This document shows positions 4,740 to 11,247 of a stretch of DNA of 64,000 bases, one piece after another (position 1 is the first letter of the stretch; the number at the start of each line of letters is the position of its first letter). The stretch is from assembly GCF_000019085.1 (NCBI RefSeq), contig NC_010321.1, positions 1,561,001 to 1,625,000 of the forward strand, written 5' to 3'. The translations under genes were made by a program, and so were the position numbers. The stretch comes from Thermoanaerobacter pseudethanolicus ATCC 33223. Its GTDB lineage: Bacteria > Bacillota > Thermoanaerobacteria > Thermoanaerobacterales > Thermoanaerobacteraceae. The notes beneath the pieces are model-generated. The model saw only the letters and a program-made list of their open reading frames with translations, did no database searches and had not been told where the DNA came from.

Positions 4740-4984
4740 TCCGTAAAATTTTAAAACCCTTTCACCCACAAAGGGCGAAAGGGCATTTCGCGGTACCACC
4801 TTTATTTATCACTCAAGCTATAACGGGCAGACCCGTTTAAACCTACTGAACTTCGGTTTACAGGCTCCAGAGCTACCTTCAGTGTACCTTTGGCGGGAAT
4901 CCTTTCAGCCCATGGGATATCCCTCTCTTTAGCCAGTATACACTTACTCCTCTCTTTCATAGCCTTATATTCCATTTGATATAT
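4740..4984 (-). promoter_or_regulatory. T-box riboswitch leader of valS
   Basis: The conserved T-box core GGTGGTACCGCG is at 4789-4800 (minus strand). It is followed by an intrinsic terminator at 4745-4783 whose 11-bp stem (CCCTTTCGCCC / GGGTGAAAGGG) competes with the antiterminator. Upstream, 4810-4970 holds the Stem I region, including AGTAAGTG and GGTAGCTCTGG. Two in-loop GTA triplets are candidate valine specifier codons; I cannot choose between them without a fold. The placement immediately before valS fits a valine-responsive T-box. Confidence 0.93.
4745..4783 (-). terminator. T-box regulated intrinsic terminator before valS
   Basis: An 11-bp stem with one G-T pair (4757-4783, loop TTTGT) is followed on the minus strand by TTTTAAAATTTT. 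It is the terminator arm of the T-box switch. Confidence 0.9.
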
Positions 4985-6230: not shown

Positions 6231-6788
6231 TTACTGCTGAACAGTTGGTCCAAAGTTTCCTCTATAGCCTGCTCCTTTATGCGCTCCTTTAGCACCAAAA
6301 CCTGCTCCCAAGCCTACACCTGTATTGCCATTGCTATTTTTTCCAAGTCCAAGACCTAAACCTACACCTGAACCTTTACCATATTGACATGTTCCATCCC
6401 ATGAATTTATCTTGTCTTCAATGGTTTTTTTGATTGTGTCAGCCCTATCCTGAGTTATTTTACCATCTTTAACTAATTGGTCTATAAACCCTTCTTTTTG
6501 CTCAATTAAAGCTTTTTTCAGATTGTCAAGTGTTATGCCATTTTCTTCTGCAATCTGAACTATTGTTTTCCCTGATTGAAGTTCACTTAAAATTTCATCT
6601 GCTGTCTTACCTGTCAGTTTTGCAAGAAAATCTGCATTTCTACTCATTCCGTATCTTGGTGCTGTCGTAGAATATTGAGGTGGAGTTGAAGAACTAGCTG
6701 TATTGCCAGTTGTGGCTGCATAAGCAGCTATTCCACTTAAAAGCATACCTCCTGTAAGTACTACTGCTACTACCTTTTTGAAATTCAT
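6231..6788 (-). CDS. Secreted DUF2680-like protein with glycine-rich tail
   Basis: The 185-residue product has a signal peptide (lysines at 4-5, hydrophobic core VVAVVLTGGMLLSGIAAYA). One helical unit follows, LDNLKKALIEQKEGFIDQLV with KDGKITQDRADTIKKTIEDK, resembling the repeats of the neighbouring gene. It ends with a low-complexity tail rich in glycine (GVGLGLGLGKN, GVGLGAGFGAKG). It is extracellular by inference; function is unknown. It and the next gene share an unusual three-box upstream element, suggesting joint control by the adjacent response regulator. Confidence 0.75.
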   Translation of the reverse strand: MNFKKVVAVVLTGGMLLSGIAAYAATTGNTASSSTPPQYSTTAPRYGMSRNADFLAKLTGKTADEILSELQSGKTIVQIAEENGITLDNLKKALIEQKEGFIDQLVKDGKITQDRADTIKKTIEDKINSWDGTCQYGKGSGVGLGLGLGKNSNGNTGVGLGAGFGAKGAHKGAGYRGNFGPTVQQ

Positions 6789-6853
6789 TTAAAACCACAC
6801 TCCTTTTTTGATTTTTGTTTTTTATTTGTTACACTTATATAATAACCCTTTAG

Positions 6854-6891
6854 TTTGAGATAACTATATTGGATTTGTGAAGGATGTGTGA
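6854..6891 (-). promoter_or_regulatory. Three-box operator upstream of the glycine-tail DUF2680-like gene
   Basis: On the plus strand the boxes are TTTGA (6854), TGTGA (6876) and TGTGA (6887), that is spacings of 22 and 11 bases. Read on the gene's strand they are TCACA-N6-TCACA-N17-TCAAA. The same boxes with the same spacings occur before the neighbouring gene at 7940-7977. Direct repeats of 11-base period are typical of OmpR/PhoB-class regulators. Confidence 0.65.
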
Positions 6892-6944
6892 ACATTTTTT
6901 TAGAGTAATATGAGGGTTCCTACTATGCAAAGTTTTGAAAATAG

Positions 6945-6974
6945 AAAAGAGATGGCATTTAACCATCTCTTTTT
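6945..6974 (-). terminator. Terminator after the triple-repeat secreted protein gene
   Basis: AAAAGAGATGG / CCATCTCTTTT flanks a short loop and has T and A tracts on either side; it lies 16 bases past the stop codon at 6990. Confidence 0.85.
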
Positions 6975-6989
6975 ATTCAAAAAATTCAA

Positions 6990-7883
6990 TTAGAGAGAGT
7001 TACTATACCCTTGAGGAGCAGTATTGGTTTGTCCATTTCCATTTTGCCATTTACCTTTAAAATTTCCTCTTTTTCCTTCAAAATGTTTGAAAAATCCTTG
7101 AGGCAATCCGTTTTGTTGCATATTTTTTACCATTGTATCAATTCTATTTTTAATCGTATTTCCTTGGTCCTGAGTAATAACTCCAAAGCTTACAAATTTA
7201 TCAACTAATTGTTTTTGCAATTGTGCCATTTGTTTGTAATAATTGATTAACTCATTCTTTTGCTGGTCTGTCAATTTAGATGGATCAACACCTCTCAAAA
7301 TAAACCCCAATCCATCGTTGCCACCGAACATAGCATAGCCTTTTTTATCAGCATTAGCTATTGTATTATCTATCGCACTTGTGATTTTGTTTGCTTGGTC
7401 TTGAGTCAATAATCCTTCAGAAACCAATTTGTTTACTATATCCTTCTGAAGTGACGCCATTTGTTTGTATATTTCTGTCAAAGCTGCTTTTTGTTGTTCT
7501 GTAAGCTTTGAAGTATCAATTGGGCCTATTCCAAAATATCCTTTGTCAAATCCTCTTCCGCCACCAATGAAGAAGGGAACATTGTCTTGATTTGCTTTAG
7601 AAACTTTGCTATCAATGTTTTTAATTATATTATCTGCTTGTTGTTGAGTTATAAGCCCTTCTGATAAGAGTTTGTTTATAAACTCTTTTTCAAGGTCGGC
7701 TATTCTTTTGTTGTAATCTGTAATTATTTGCTCTTGCTCTGGTGTAAGCTTTGATGTGTCAATTCCAAAAAAGCCTTTTATGCTGTTTGTCAGTGGTGAA
7801 TCAGTATTTGCTGCAAAAACTGTCAAAGGAATTGCTAAAGCCAATACAACTGCTAAAACTATTAACCATTTGTTTCTCTTCAT
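6990..7883 (-). CDS. Secreted protein with three DUF2680-type helical repeats
   Basis: The product is 297 residues with a signal peptide (MKRNKWLIVLAVVLALAIP then AFA-like cleavage region). Three repeat units of about 75-80 residues follow. Each starts DxSKLTxxQ and contains a helix ending in (L/F)VxxGxITQxQ(A/G) and a final helix (xIxxxIDxxV). The last part is basic and glycine/asparagine rich. GGAGG lies nine bases before ATG at 7883; an upstream in-frame ATG at 7919 has no such site. The role is unknown. Position next to a two-component system suggests a cell-envelope stress function, by inference. Confidence 0.8.
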   Translation of the reverse strand: MKRNKWLIVLAVVLALAIPLTVFAANTDSPLTNSIKGFFGIDTSKLTPEQEQIITDYNKRIADLEKEFINKLLSEGLITQQQADNIIKNIDSKVSKANQDNVPFFIGGGRGFDKGYFGIGPIDTSKLTEQQKAALTEIYKQMASLQKDIVNKLVSEGLLTQDQANKITSAIDNTIANADKKGYAMFGGNDGLGFILRGVDPSKLTDQQKNELINYYKQMAQLQKQLVDKFVSFGVITQDQGNTIKNRIDTMVKNMQQNGLPQGFFKHFEGKRGNFKGKWQNGNGQTNTAPQGYSNSL

Positions 7884-7939
7884 ATATGGATACCTCCTTT
7901 TAAATTTTTCCTTTTTCATTCTTTATGATACCCAAATAG

Positions 7940-7977
7940 TTTGAAGTAATTTTATATAATTTGTGAGGAAAGTGTGA
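7940..7977. promoter_or_regulatory. Three-box operator in the divergent region between secreted gene and response regulator
   Basis: TTTGA at 7940, TGTGA at 7962 and TGTGA at 7973 repeat the 22/11-base geometry of the site at 6854-6891. Flanking bases are also shared (ATAGTTTGA..., TTTGTGAGGAAAGTGTGAAG here; TTAGTTTGA..., TTTGTGAAGGATGTGTGAAC there). Lying between divergent genes, it may control both the secreted protein and the regulator itself. Confidence 0.65.
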
Positions 7978-8042
7978 AGTTTAATTTTAAATATTGTAAA
8001 CTGATTAAAAAATAATTAAACTAAAGATGGGAGGTGTTTTTT

Positions 8043-8717
8043 ATGCAAAAAGTTTTAGTAATTGAAGACGAAGAAGGAATGAGAGATATTTTAAAAACTT
8101 ATTTAGAAAATAATGGATATGAAGTATTGGTAGCTGAAAATGGCAAAATAGGGCTTGAATATTTTAATAATAATAAAGATATAAGCATAATCCTTTTAGA
8201 TATAATGCTTCCAGATATAAGTGGTTGGAGCCTTTTAAAAACAATTAGAGAAAAGTCAAAAGTGCCTGTAATGATGATAACAGCAAGAGGAGAAGAGTAT
8301 GATAAACTTTTAGGGTTTGAATTAGGAGCAGATGATTACGTTGTAAAACCTTTTAGCCCTAAAGAAGTAATCGCTCGCGTTAAAGCAATTTTGTCAAGAA
8401 CTTATGGAGCTTCAGAAGAAGAGGGGAAAACAGAATATGAAGGAATTTCTATAAATGTAAGTTTTAGGGAAGTTACGGTTGATGGAGAAAAAATTGACCT
8501 TACGCCAAAAGAATTTGACCTTTTAAAACTCTTAATAGATAATAAAGGAAAAGTTGTATCCCGCGAAAAGTGCCTTAATGAAGTATGGGGATATGATTTT
8601 TATGGAGATTTAAGAACAGTTGATACCCATATAAAACAGTTAAGAGAAAAATTAGGAGAAAAGCGCAAACTCATAAAAACAGTGTGGGGAATAGGTTACA
8701 AATTGGATGGTGAATAA
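8043..8717 (+). CDS. OmpR/PhoB-family response regulator
   Basis: The receiver domain occupies residues 1-115, with acidic residues E8-D9, phospho-acceptor D53 (LLDIMLPD) and conserved lysine in VVKPFSP. The winged-helix DNA-binding domain follows (LTPKEFDLLKLL, then DLRTVDTHIKQLREKL). I start it at ATG 8043 because GGGAGGTG at 8030-8036 is its ribosome binding site; the earlier GTG at 8034 overlaps that site. It is cotranscribed with the histidine kinase that follows after two bases. Likely target is the three-box element found next door. Confidence 0.93.
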   Translation: MQKVLVIEDEEGMRDILKTYLENNGYEVLVAENGKIGLEYFNNNKDISIILLDIMLPDISGWSLLKTIREKSKVPVMMITARGEEYDKLLGFELGADDYVVKPFSPKEVIARVKAILSRTYGASEEEGKTEYEGISINVSFREVTVDGEKIDLTPKEFDLLKLLIDNKGKVVSREKCLNEVWGYDFYGDLRTVDTHIKQLREKLGEKRKLIKTVWGIGYKLDGE

Positions 8718-8719
8718 AT

Positions 8720-10060
8720 TTGAAAGGAATAAGAAAAAAGCTTTTTATCTCTTACCTTATCATAGGCCTTATAATTTTATCTATGTTTTGGCTTACTCAA
8801 GTAGTTTTTATTAATAAGATATACTCTTATTACAAAATAAATCAACTTAAAAATTACAGTGAAAAAATTGTAGAAGCAATAAATAACAACGATGAAATGC
8901 TTATAAGTGAACTTATTGACAAATCTAATGCCCAAGTCGTCGCAATGACACAAAACAACATAATAATTGCAGGAAATAACAGAGGATACGGTCGAGGTTT
9001 GGGAATCCCTGAAGTACTTCTTCACCCTATAAACACTGTAAAAGTTGTAAAATATGAGCATCCTTTTTTGCATATAGAATATCTTTCTATTGTAAGGCCT
9101 TTTTTATATAACGGAAAACCCGCTACTTTAATAATGAGCATCCCTATCGCCGCTATAAACGACTCTGTCAATCTTTTTAAACAAGTTTTTTGGCGGATTT
9201 TTGTCGTCACAATAGCAGCAATTTTATTTGTGTCAATTTACATGTCAAAAAAGTTTACTCGACCTATACAAATTTTGAAAAATGCTGCTCACCAAATCGC
9301 TTCTGGAAATTTAGATGTCAAAATAAATTACAAAGAAGACGATGAATTAGGAGACCTTGCAAAATCTATGAACACAATGGTAAAACAGTTATCTATCACA
9401 GACAAGTTCAGAAAAGATTTGATTGCAAATATAAGCCATGATTTAAAAACACCTCTTGGCCTTATACGTGGATATTCTGAAATGCTTTTAGACTACTATG
9501 GAGACGATAAAGAAAAAAGAGAAAAATATTTAAATACAGTGATTAAAGAAACAGAGAGAATGTCTAAATTAGTAGACGACGTGTTACAGCTTTCTAAGCT
9601 CCAATCAGGAATGGTAGAAATAAAAGAGGAACCTATAGATTTAGAAAAACTTATATTTGAAACTTTAGACATATTTGAAATTCAAATTTTAGAAAAAAAT
9701 ATAGAAGTAAAGCTTAATAATCTTAAACTTAAGGTAATAGCGGATAGGGAAATGATAAAACGGGCAATTATAAATATAATAAGCAATGCTATAGCGAGTA
9801 TGGAAAATGGCGGAATTCTTACTATAACTGCAGAGCCTCAAGATAAAGAAATTTTAATTAAAGTATCAGATACGGGATGCGGCATACCTCAAAAAGATTT
9901 AGAGCACATCTTTGACAGGTATTACAAAGGAAACAAATCAGGCACAGGGCTTGGACTTGCAATAGTAAAAGAAATATTGACATTACACGGCAGTAAATAT
10001 GGTATAGAAAGTCAAGAAGGAGTAGGAACCACTTTTTATTTCACATTAAAAGCGGGTTAA
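8720..10060 (+). CDS. Membrane sensor histidine kinase
   Basis: The 446-residue kinase has a first membrane segment near residues 8-28, an extracytoplasmic region of about 130 residues and a second membrane segment near 158-178. A HAMP linker, a HisKA domain with H240 in NISHDLKTPLG, and an ATPase domain (N-box SNAIASMENGG, G1 SDTGCGIP, GTGLGLAIVKE) follow. The start is TTG at 8720 with GGTGA upstream. The stimulus is unknown; pairing with DUF2680-like secreted proteins suggests envelope sensing. Confidence 0.92.
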   Translation: MKGIRKKLFISYLIIGLIILSMFWLTQVVFINKIYSYYKINQLKNYSEKIVEAINNNDEMLISELIDKSNAQVVAMTQNNIIIAGNNRGYGRGLGIPEVLLHPINTVKVVKYEHPFLHIEYLSIVRPFLYNGKPATLIMSIPIAAINDSVNLFKQVFWRIFVVTIAAILFVSIYMSKKFTRPIQILKNAAHQIASGNLDVKINYKEDDELGDLAKSMNTMVKQLSITDKFRKDLIANISHDLKTPLGLIRGYSEMLLDYYGDDKEKREKYLNTVIKETERMSKLVDDVLQLSKLQSGMVEIKEEPIDLEKLIFETLDIFEIQILEKNIEVKLNNLKLKVIADREMIKRAIINIISNAIASMENGGILTITAEPQDKEILIKVSDTGCGIPQKDLEHIFDRYYKGNKSGTGLGLAIVKEILTLHGSKYGIESQEGVGTTFYFTLKAG

Positions 10061-10075: not shown

Positions 10076-10510
10076 TTAAAAAAATAGCAAATCAATGTGT
10101 CTCATCACATTCCTGTAAATATCGCTAATTGAATTCCCAGTCTTTTCAGCAATGGCTTTAACATCTTCATACTCAGGATACGCTTTAATAAGTTTTCCAT
10201 TTAAATAGCCCTTTTTTACTCTTATTCTTCCGTAAGGAGTATCCACAACTAAAAAATCTCTATCAAGTTTGTACCTTAACGCTTCGTAATACCTTATGCC
10301 AAAAGTAGAAGTCTCTCTAAATATTATCTCCTTTAATTTATCAGCATTTTCTTTTTCACAAATTACCGTAAGAAGCGTTCCCGGCCTTTGCTTTTTCATA
10401 ATAATAGGAATCAAAAACACATCCAATGCCCCGTTTTCAAAAAGTTTTTCAAATAGATACTGATAAAACTCTGGATTCATATCATCTATATTAGTCTCTA
10501 AAATCATCAA
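10076..10510 (-). CDS. larC2: LarC C-terminal part (LarC2), joined to LarC1 by -1 frameshift
   Basis: This frame encodes the C-terminal half of the nickel-inserting cyclometallase LarC; it opens with ILETNIDDMNPEFY, the family motif that normally follows directly on the N-terminal half. It overlaps larC1 by four bases. A slippery A-AAA-AAC lies 14-20 bases before the overlap, and a -1 shift there produces a continuous protein with the join ...EEVKK-PESLMILETN. In Lactiplantibacillus plantarum LarC is also made by programmed frameshifting. An independent start at ATG 10510 or 10507 lacks a clear ribosome binding site, which favours the fusion. Confidence 0.88.
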   Translation of the reverse strand: MMILETNIDDMNPEFYQYLFEKLFENGALDVFLIPIIMKKQRPGTLLTVICEKENADKLKEIIFRETSTFGIRYYEALRYKLDRDFLVVDTPYGRIRVKKGYLNGKLIKAYPEYEDVKAIAEKTGNSISDIYRNVMRHIDLLFF

Positions 10511-11247
10511 TGACTCAGGTTTTTTTTTACCTCTTCCTCTCCCACATATGTCCTCAAAACATTTGGTATCTCTAAATCCTTAGTACCAGCACCATATCCA
10601 ACAGAATTTATCGTCATGTCAGGTATACCACCAAACTCATTCGCTAAAGTTTTTACAATAGCGGCACCGGTAGGTGTCACAATTTCACCTTTTACATCGC
10701 TTTGGTACACAGGTATTCCTTTTAAAAGTTCTGCTGTTGCTGGTGCAGGCACAGGTATAAGACCGTGTTGAGTATCTACAAAGCCTGAACTTACTGGCAA
10801 AGGAGAAGAAACAATCTTATCTGGCTTTATCATGTCTATAAGTATCGCCGTACCTATTATATCTACTATAGAATCTACTGCCCCCACTTCATGAAAATGC
10901 ACTTCTTCGGGAGATTTTCCATGCACTTTTGCCTCTGCTTCTGCTAATTTCTCAAACATCTCAACACTCATTTTCCTGACTTCTTCCTCTAAATCACTCT
11001 TATCGATGATTTCTCTCACATCTTTCATATGCCTATGATGGTGATGATGCTCTTCCTCATACAATACCTTAAAAGTCTTAGCACTTATACTATTCTTTTG
11101 TGTTTTCCCTATCTCTATATCAAAATTGTCCAAAGCTATTTTCTTTACCTTCTTTTTAAACTCTTCCACATCTACATGAGATAATAATGAAGCAATAGTC
11201 ATATCTCCAGAAATTCCAGCAAAACAGTCAAAATATAAGACTTTCAT
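10507..11247 (-). CDS. larC1: LarC N-terminal part (LarC1), nickel insertion for pincer cofactor
   Basis: LarC inserts nickel into the pyridinium bisthiocarboxylate mononucleotide made by LarB and LarE. The 246-residue frame starts MKVLYFDCFAGISGDM, typical for the family, and has the histidine-rich stretch EEHHHHHRHMKD (residues 67-78), FHEVGAVDSIVDIIG and GYGAGTKDLEIPNVLRTYVGE near the end. The start overlaps the larB stop as ATGA. After GEEEV the frame enters an A9 run and stops soon after; see the slippery site entry. Confidence 0.92.
   Translation of the reverse strand: MKVLYFDCFAGISGDMTIASLLSHVDVEEFKKKVKKIALDNFDIEIGKTQKNSISAKTFKVLYEEEHHHHHRHMKDVREIIDKSDLEEEVRKMSVEMFEKLAEAEAKVHGKSPEEVHFHEVGAVDSIVDIIGTAILIDMIKPDKIVSSPLPVSSGFVDTQHGLIPVPAPATAELLKGIPVYQSDVKGEIVTPTGAAIVKTLANEFGGIPDMTINSVGYGAGTKDLEIPNVLRTYVGEEEVKKNLSH
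10518..10532 (-). promoter_or_regulatory. Candidate programmed -1 frameshift site in larC
   Basis: On the minus strand the larC1 codons read GAG GTA AAA AAA AAC CTG. A-AAA-AAC is a classical X-XXY-YYZ heptamer in the zero frame. Re-pairing by -1 gives CCT GAG TCA TTG ATG ATT, which is the larC2 frame. The zero frame then stops (TGA) three codons after the shift point. Alternatively an A10 run would also fuse the frames. Confidence 0.7.

Follow-up and report, generated by a model that had tools for sequence, protein, structure and literature searches.

A four-box operator shared by two secreted DUF2680 protein genes and probably bound by the adjacent OmpR-family regulator in Thermoanaerobacter pseudethanolicus

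Two genes for secreted DUF2680 proteins in T. pseudethanolicus ATCC 33223 are preceded by what appear to be four-half-site operators of the OmpR-family response regulator encoded beside them, which would activate both genes in response to an envelope signal. We put the probability of this reading at about 0.83. Its parts differ in strength: an OmpR-type regulator very probably acts on the operator, and the binder is most likely the regulator next door (8043-8717). The basis is sequence: how the operator is built, that it is conserved, that it co-occurs with the regulator and that it also stands before genes unlinked to it; from these we infer binding by this regulator and activation rather than repression. 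The type of switch is well known. No description of the DUF2680 operator system or of its targets was found in the literature searched.

All coordinates refer to the window, which is the whole 64,000-nucleotide stretch analysed (contig NC_010321.1, positions 1,561,001 to 1,625,000), unless a contig or locus is named. Gene A (6231-6788, minus strand) encodes a secreted DUF2680 protein of 185 amino acids with a Gly-rich C-terminal part (PF10925, 30.6 bits). Gene B (6990-7883, minus strand) encodes a secreted protein of 297 amino acids with three DUF2680 repeats (PF10925, 201 bits over three stretches). Both products score above the Pfam cut-off of PF10925. A terminator-like hairpin (6945-6973, minus strand) lies 3' of gene B and ahead of the gene A promoter, which makes separate transcription of gene A, from its own operator copy, likely. 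The plus strand carries the gene for the OmpR-family response regulator (8043-8717; 224 amino acids; Pfam Response_reg and Trans_reg_C), the proposed binder, with the recognition helix RTVDTHIKQLR. It is followed by the gene for a histidine kinase of 446 amino acids (8720-10060, plus strand; HAMP, HisKA and HATPase_c), the proposed sensor.

Two other features of the window are recorded here in their own right. At 10076-11247 on the minus strand, beside larB- and larE-like genes, there are two overlapping ORFs in different frames; we take them to resemble the two halves of LarC, and presumably they could give a frameshift-made protein, as for LarC. The leader of the valyl-tRNA synthetase gene (4740-4980, minus strand) has what we assume to be the look of a T-box.

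The preliminary description of this DNA reported three boxes at identical spacing before both DUF2680 genes, with additional shared flanks and with one copy divergent from an OmpR-type regulator gene. The motif, TTTGA-N17-TGTGA-N6-TGTGA on the plus strand, is indeed exact at 6854-6891 and 7940-7977, and the second copy adjoins the gene at 8043-8717, whose family is assigned by Pfam. The shared flanks are real, and one part of them is a -10 element at a fixed distance; it is across the boxes and this element that the sequences upstream of the two genes are most alike. The plus-strand reading was right as to sequence but not as to orientation, as the array points to the DUF2680 genes on the minus strand. 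Read towards these genes, both copies are TCACA-N6-TCACA-N17-TCAAA. There is one further match in the window, with 2 mismatches (0.27 expected at up to 2 mismatches). In the complete 2.36 Mb genome, scanned by pattern and not by weight matrix, the exact motif is found at these two places only; 0.008-0.010 exact motifs are expected genome-wide, by base or dinucleotide composition. The gene set retrieved by the motif in this genome is genes A and B only. A third site with 1 mismatch (C1:1304814) was considered and rejected: it lies in the topA/hslV interval, points in the wrong direction and is kept in G005, a genome without the regulator.

TGTGA is the Crp half-site. Since the boxes read TGTGA on the plus strand, a Crp/Fnr-type site might be considered; such a site has the inverted arrangement TGTGA-N6-TCACA, whereas the repeats found here are direct, follow an 11-bp step and number four. 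This explanation is hardly credible.

The fourth box lies within the 17-bp gap. Arrays of other genera, which precede the orthologue of gene A or further DUF2680 genes, have TTAAA, TTACA or TCACA in this gap, exactly 11 bp past box 2. This register was assessed in ten promoters from outside the A and B orthologues of the window's genus, picked without regard to the position of box 3. It gives 46 of 50 matches against a shuffled mean of 22.8, and 0 of 20,000 shuffles scored as high. In Thermoanaerobacter, box 3 is degenerate (ATATA or ATAAA). With box 3 in register, the 22/11 phasing resolves into four half-sites at a constant 11-bp step, one of them weak. The gene A promoter thus has box 1 (TCACA) at 6887-6891, box 2 (TCACA) at 6876-6880, the box 3 slot (ATATA) at 6865-6869 and box 4 (TCAAA) at 6854-6858, all on the minus strand. 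In the gene B promoter, also on the minus strand, the same elements are at 7973-7977 (TCACA), 7962-7966 (TCACA), 7951-7955 (ATAAA) and 7940-7944 (TCAAA). The preliminary description had tandem dimers and a third site one helical turn further. Its helical phasing is retained, but in place of a dimer plus a third site the four half-sites make two tandem dimer sites.

The -10 elements are TATTAT (6839-6844, minus strand) for gene A and TATCAT (7925-7930, minus strand) for gene B, each 9 bp past box 4; this spacing is fixed in relatives. TAnnnT stands exactly N9 past box 4 in nine of the ten promoters, and other spacings score 0 to 2. No -35 is visible at the proper place, and the array extends from about -59 to -22. 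OmpR/PhoB-family activation is marked by head-to-tail repeats at 10-11 bp and by an array that takes the place of the -35 with constant spacing to the -10; the four slots at 11 bp and the constant N9 correspond to both. As judged from the sequence, the layout is that expected of an OmpR/PhoB-family activator substituting for the -35. An ordinary sigma-70 promoter is another way to read the same DNA, with box 1 (TTCACA) as the -35 and TATAGT or TAAAAT 18 bp on as the -10, and in a consensus scan both copies match it at 10 of 12 positions. However, other genera do not keep this -10 within the gap but do keep TAnnnT at N9 past box 4, and the repeated boxes would be left unexplained. A plain sigma-70 promoter is thus highly improbable.

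The preliminary description held that absence of the motif upstream of orthologous DUF2680-like genes would refute it; the motif is found there, and the idea withstood this check. The array is kept before the A and B orthologues within the genus, and in the genera g2, f2, f3 and f4 arrays precede DUF2680 genes, A-type or other; G021 has an unlinked B orthologue with a weak array only. By protein A, close relatives are Thermoanaerobacter and Caldanaerobacter, and a search of named genomes with this protein alone reaches only these and one clostridial genome. A class-wide DUF2680 search was made and, when repeated, gave the identical 37 genomes. In these, with up to 3 mismatches allowed, there are 80 matches to the full pattern and 8 to the reversed one. 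For co-occurrence, the array was counted when it departed from the full pattern by no more than 2 mismatches, and the regulator when an orthologue was present. Both are found in 27 of the 37 genomes of the class, the regulator only in 2, the array only in 0 and neither in 8 (Fisher p = 1.2e-6, not corrected for phylogeny, with genus members that are near-identical and not independent samples). The two regulator-only genomes, G030 and G032, have a weaker array. The co-occurrence is partly due to linkage, because a single deletion can take out the regulator, the genes and the array at once. The operator is real and predates the genus.

The genome encodes five OmpR-family regulators, that is, four besides the one at 8043-8717. 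One of these four (for example, a WalR-like regulator) might use the sites, or the adjacent regulator might repress; we regard both as unlikely. G005, where the regulator is missing, retains an array-like site near a polysaccharide deacetylase gene, which would favour another binder. However, this G005 site is without a fitting box 4 and -10, and no regulator-less genome has an array within 2 mismatches. Repression fits poorly with an array that substitutes for the -35 at fixed spacing and does not cover the complete promoter. Activation by the adjacent regulator is the preferred reading. The deacetylase site itself reads TCACA-N6-TCACA-N6-TTACA and is conserved in the genus, G005 included (L158; G009:C1:2632217-2632269). 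This genus site, near an SLH-protein gene (G002) as well as the deacetylase gene, is left unassigned, for the same lack of a fitting box 4 and -10 and for its retention in G005.

Arrays are also found away from the regulator. The regulator operon lies among different neighbours in two f2 genomes (G020 and G022), with no DUF2680 gene next to it. The arrays in these genomes are before an unlinked DUF2680-like gene, an A-like gene and two small SHOCT membrane-protein genes; linkage therefore cannot account for family f2. The regulator's own promoter in G020 and G022 has two boxes 11 bp apart, 28-29 bp ahead of TATAAT. These boxes are the sole sign of autoregulation, and feedback on the regulator operon is hinted at by them.

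In f4, array promoters are found ahead of DUF2680 and SHOCT genes. SHOCT-like domains are tied to membrane-stress systems (PMC11237479), which fits the envelope theme. The SHOCT genes of the two f2 genomes come in pairs; their products are tiny membrane proteins (MMWW...) whose C-terminal part is the SHOCT domain, and each gene has its own four-box array (L129:2290 and 5594; L130:2813 and 6108), and the SHOCT genes with arrays in f4 are similar (L138, L140). None of the SHOCT genes in the window's own genome has an array. An Amidase_3 amidase-like gene has a four-box array in G001, G003, G004 and G008 (L123:1551; L124:1306; L125:2999; L126:1607). The gene was not found in the window's genome or in G009, and four further genomes have it in broken or partial form; it is possibly a variable target. 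A gene for an HlyD-type membrane-fusion (efflux) protein in G023 is preceded by an array whose -10 is well placed (L150:1501-1553).

The DNA pattern can retrieve further members in other Bacillota without protein homology. Allowing up to 1 mismatch, the full pattern matches 37 times in 299 genomes of the phylum and the reversed one 7 times. Twenty genomes outside the class contribute 25 sites. Of these, five are directly before Pfam DUF2680 genes, and four of these five genes are above the family cut-off; the enrichment has p ~1e-10, assuming three such genes per 2,500 and computed with 24 sites. At four of the 25 the gene of an OmpR-type regulator is no more than 1.5 kb away, and each of these regulators has the helix RTVDTHIK, as in the window. 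Of the phylum-wide sites, about half stand before genes of other kinds, which speaks against a dedicated DUF2680 operator; small secreted proteins and some unrelated genes are found behind such sites.

Activation would proceed as follows. Two head-to-tail dimers of the phosphorylated regulator would bind, one on the strong pair TCACA-N6-TCACA and one on the two weaker boxes that occupy the following 22 bp, with all four half-sites on one helical face. In lieu of the missing -35, the array would recruit RNA polymerase to the -10, 9 bp downstream. The kinase is envisaged to sense a change in the cell envelope, whereupon the regulator would turn on both DUF2680 genes. The envelope signal, like feedback on the regulator operon, is a predicted part of this scheme. 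The preliminary description had also proposed a small envelope regulon. An OmpR operator serving a small, apparently envelope-related gene set agrees with the sequence data; in the own genome, however, the motif set is just two genes. DUF2680 has no described function; in a full-text literature search it was mentioned in a single paper, on toxin-antitoxin systems. A link to a defined two-component promoter gives the family a regulatory context and a testable signal pathway.

A parallel in gene order is CpxRA-CpxP, in which the gene for a small secreted protein is divergent from a regulator-kinase operon (PMC6737893). A secreted-protein gene is likewise divergent from the regulator-kinase operon in the window and in relatives. 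The DUF2680 proteins have signal-like N-termini and helical cores, and A also has its Gly-rich tail. They differ from CpxP in having no LTXXQ/CpxP/Spy sequence match: in Pfam, the CpxP/Spy LTXXQ domain is absent and only DUF2680 is above cut-off. AlphaFold models are of low confidence (mean pLDDT 56 and 60) and gave no fold match at E <= 0.001. Homology to CpxP/Spy was therefore rejected, with the fold result to be read in the light of these low-confidence models. A wider proposal is a Bacillota-wide envelope-response module. It would consist of OmpR-type RTVDTHIK regulators, the TCACA four-box promoter and DUF2680 (plus SHOCT) envelope proteins, which would serve as secreted buffers or chaperones and feed back on the kinase. 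This would be a functional counterpart of Cpx/CpxP made from unrelated proteins, and we offer it as a tentative and rather doubtful extension.

A comparison can also be made with RR_1586 of C. difficile, a clostridial OmpR-family regulator with an 11-bp direct-repeat operator that was then traced by comparative genomics (PMC6222199). It differs in its box, RTTAAG, and in its targets.

The closest likeness in operator design is to the PhoB/PhoP promoters of E. coli and B. subtilis, where an OmpR-family regulator acts at PHO boxes, which are pairs of 11-bp direct repeats (PMC4415409). The array could thus be a PHO box bound by PhoP, which would place genes A and B in the Pho regulon. The S. coelicolor box, GTTCACC, is akin to TTCACA, and the nearest solved structure to the window regulator by sequence is RegX3. 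The pst promoter of the same genome has the same design: it reads TAACA-N6-TAACA-N6-TAATA-N6-TTACA-N9-TACAAT (G000:C1, ~877839-877892; L221:1300-1353), and its arrangement of four boxes with N6 gaps and N9 to the -10 matches that of the DUF2680 promoters to the base. However, its boxes are TAACA/TTACA and not TCACA, and a separate, PhoP-like OmpR-family regulator and its kinase are encoded directly before pstS. The helix of that regulator is RTVDVHIRHLR, against RTVDTHIKQLR in the window regulator, and no pst gene lies behind any TCACA array examined. Membership in a PhoP phosphate regulon is accordingly very unlikely. With a separate pst regulator and with different boxes and helix, the window regulator would be PhoP-like in its working but not the phosphate regulator; it is a sister of PhoP, not PhoP. 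Paralogues elsewhere show further combinations. In f4, a DUF2680 gene and the gene of a second, paralogous regulator diverge from a region with TTTACA boxes in register, and this regulator has the helix RTVDVHIKQLR (L076, L077, L078, L083, L084). RTVDTHIK is not unique to the TCACA regulators, as a G023 paralogue with this helix faces a DUF2680 gene via a weaker array of the same geometry. The DUF2680 system thus shares its regulator family and its 11-bp direct repeats with the PHO-box promoters and is set apart by its TCACA boxes, its helix and its DUF2680/SHOCT targets in place of phosphate genes. Together, the pst and DUF2680 promoters are a natural experiment on operator separation among paralogous OmpR-family regulators.
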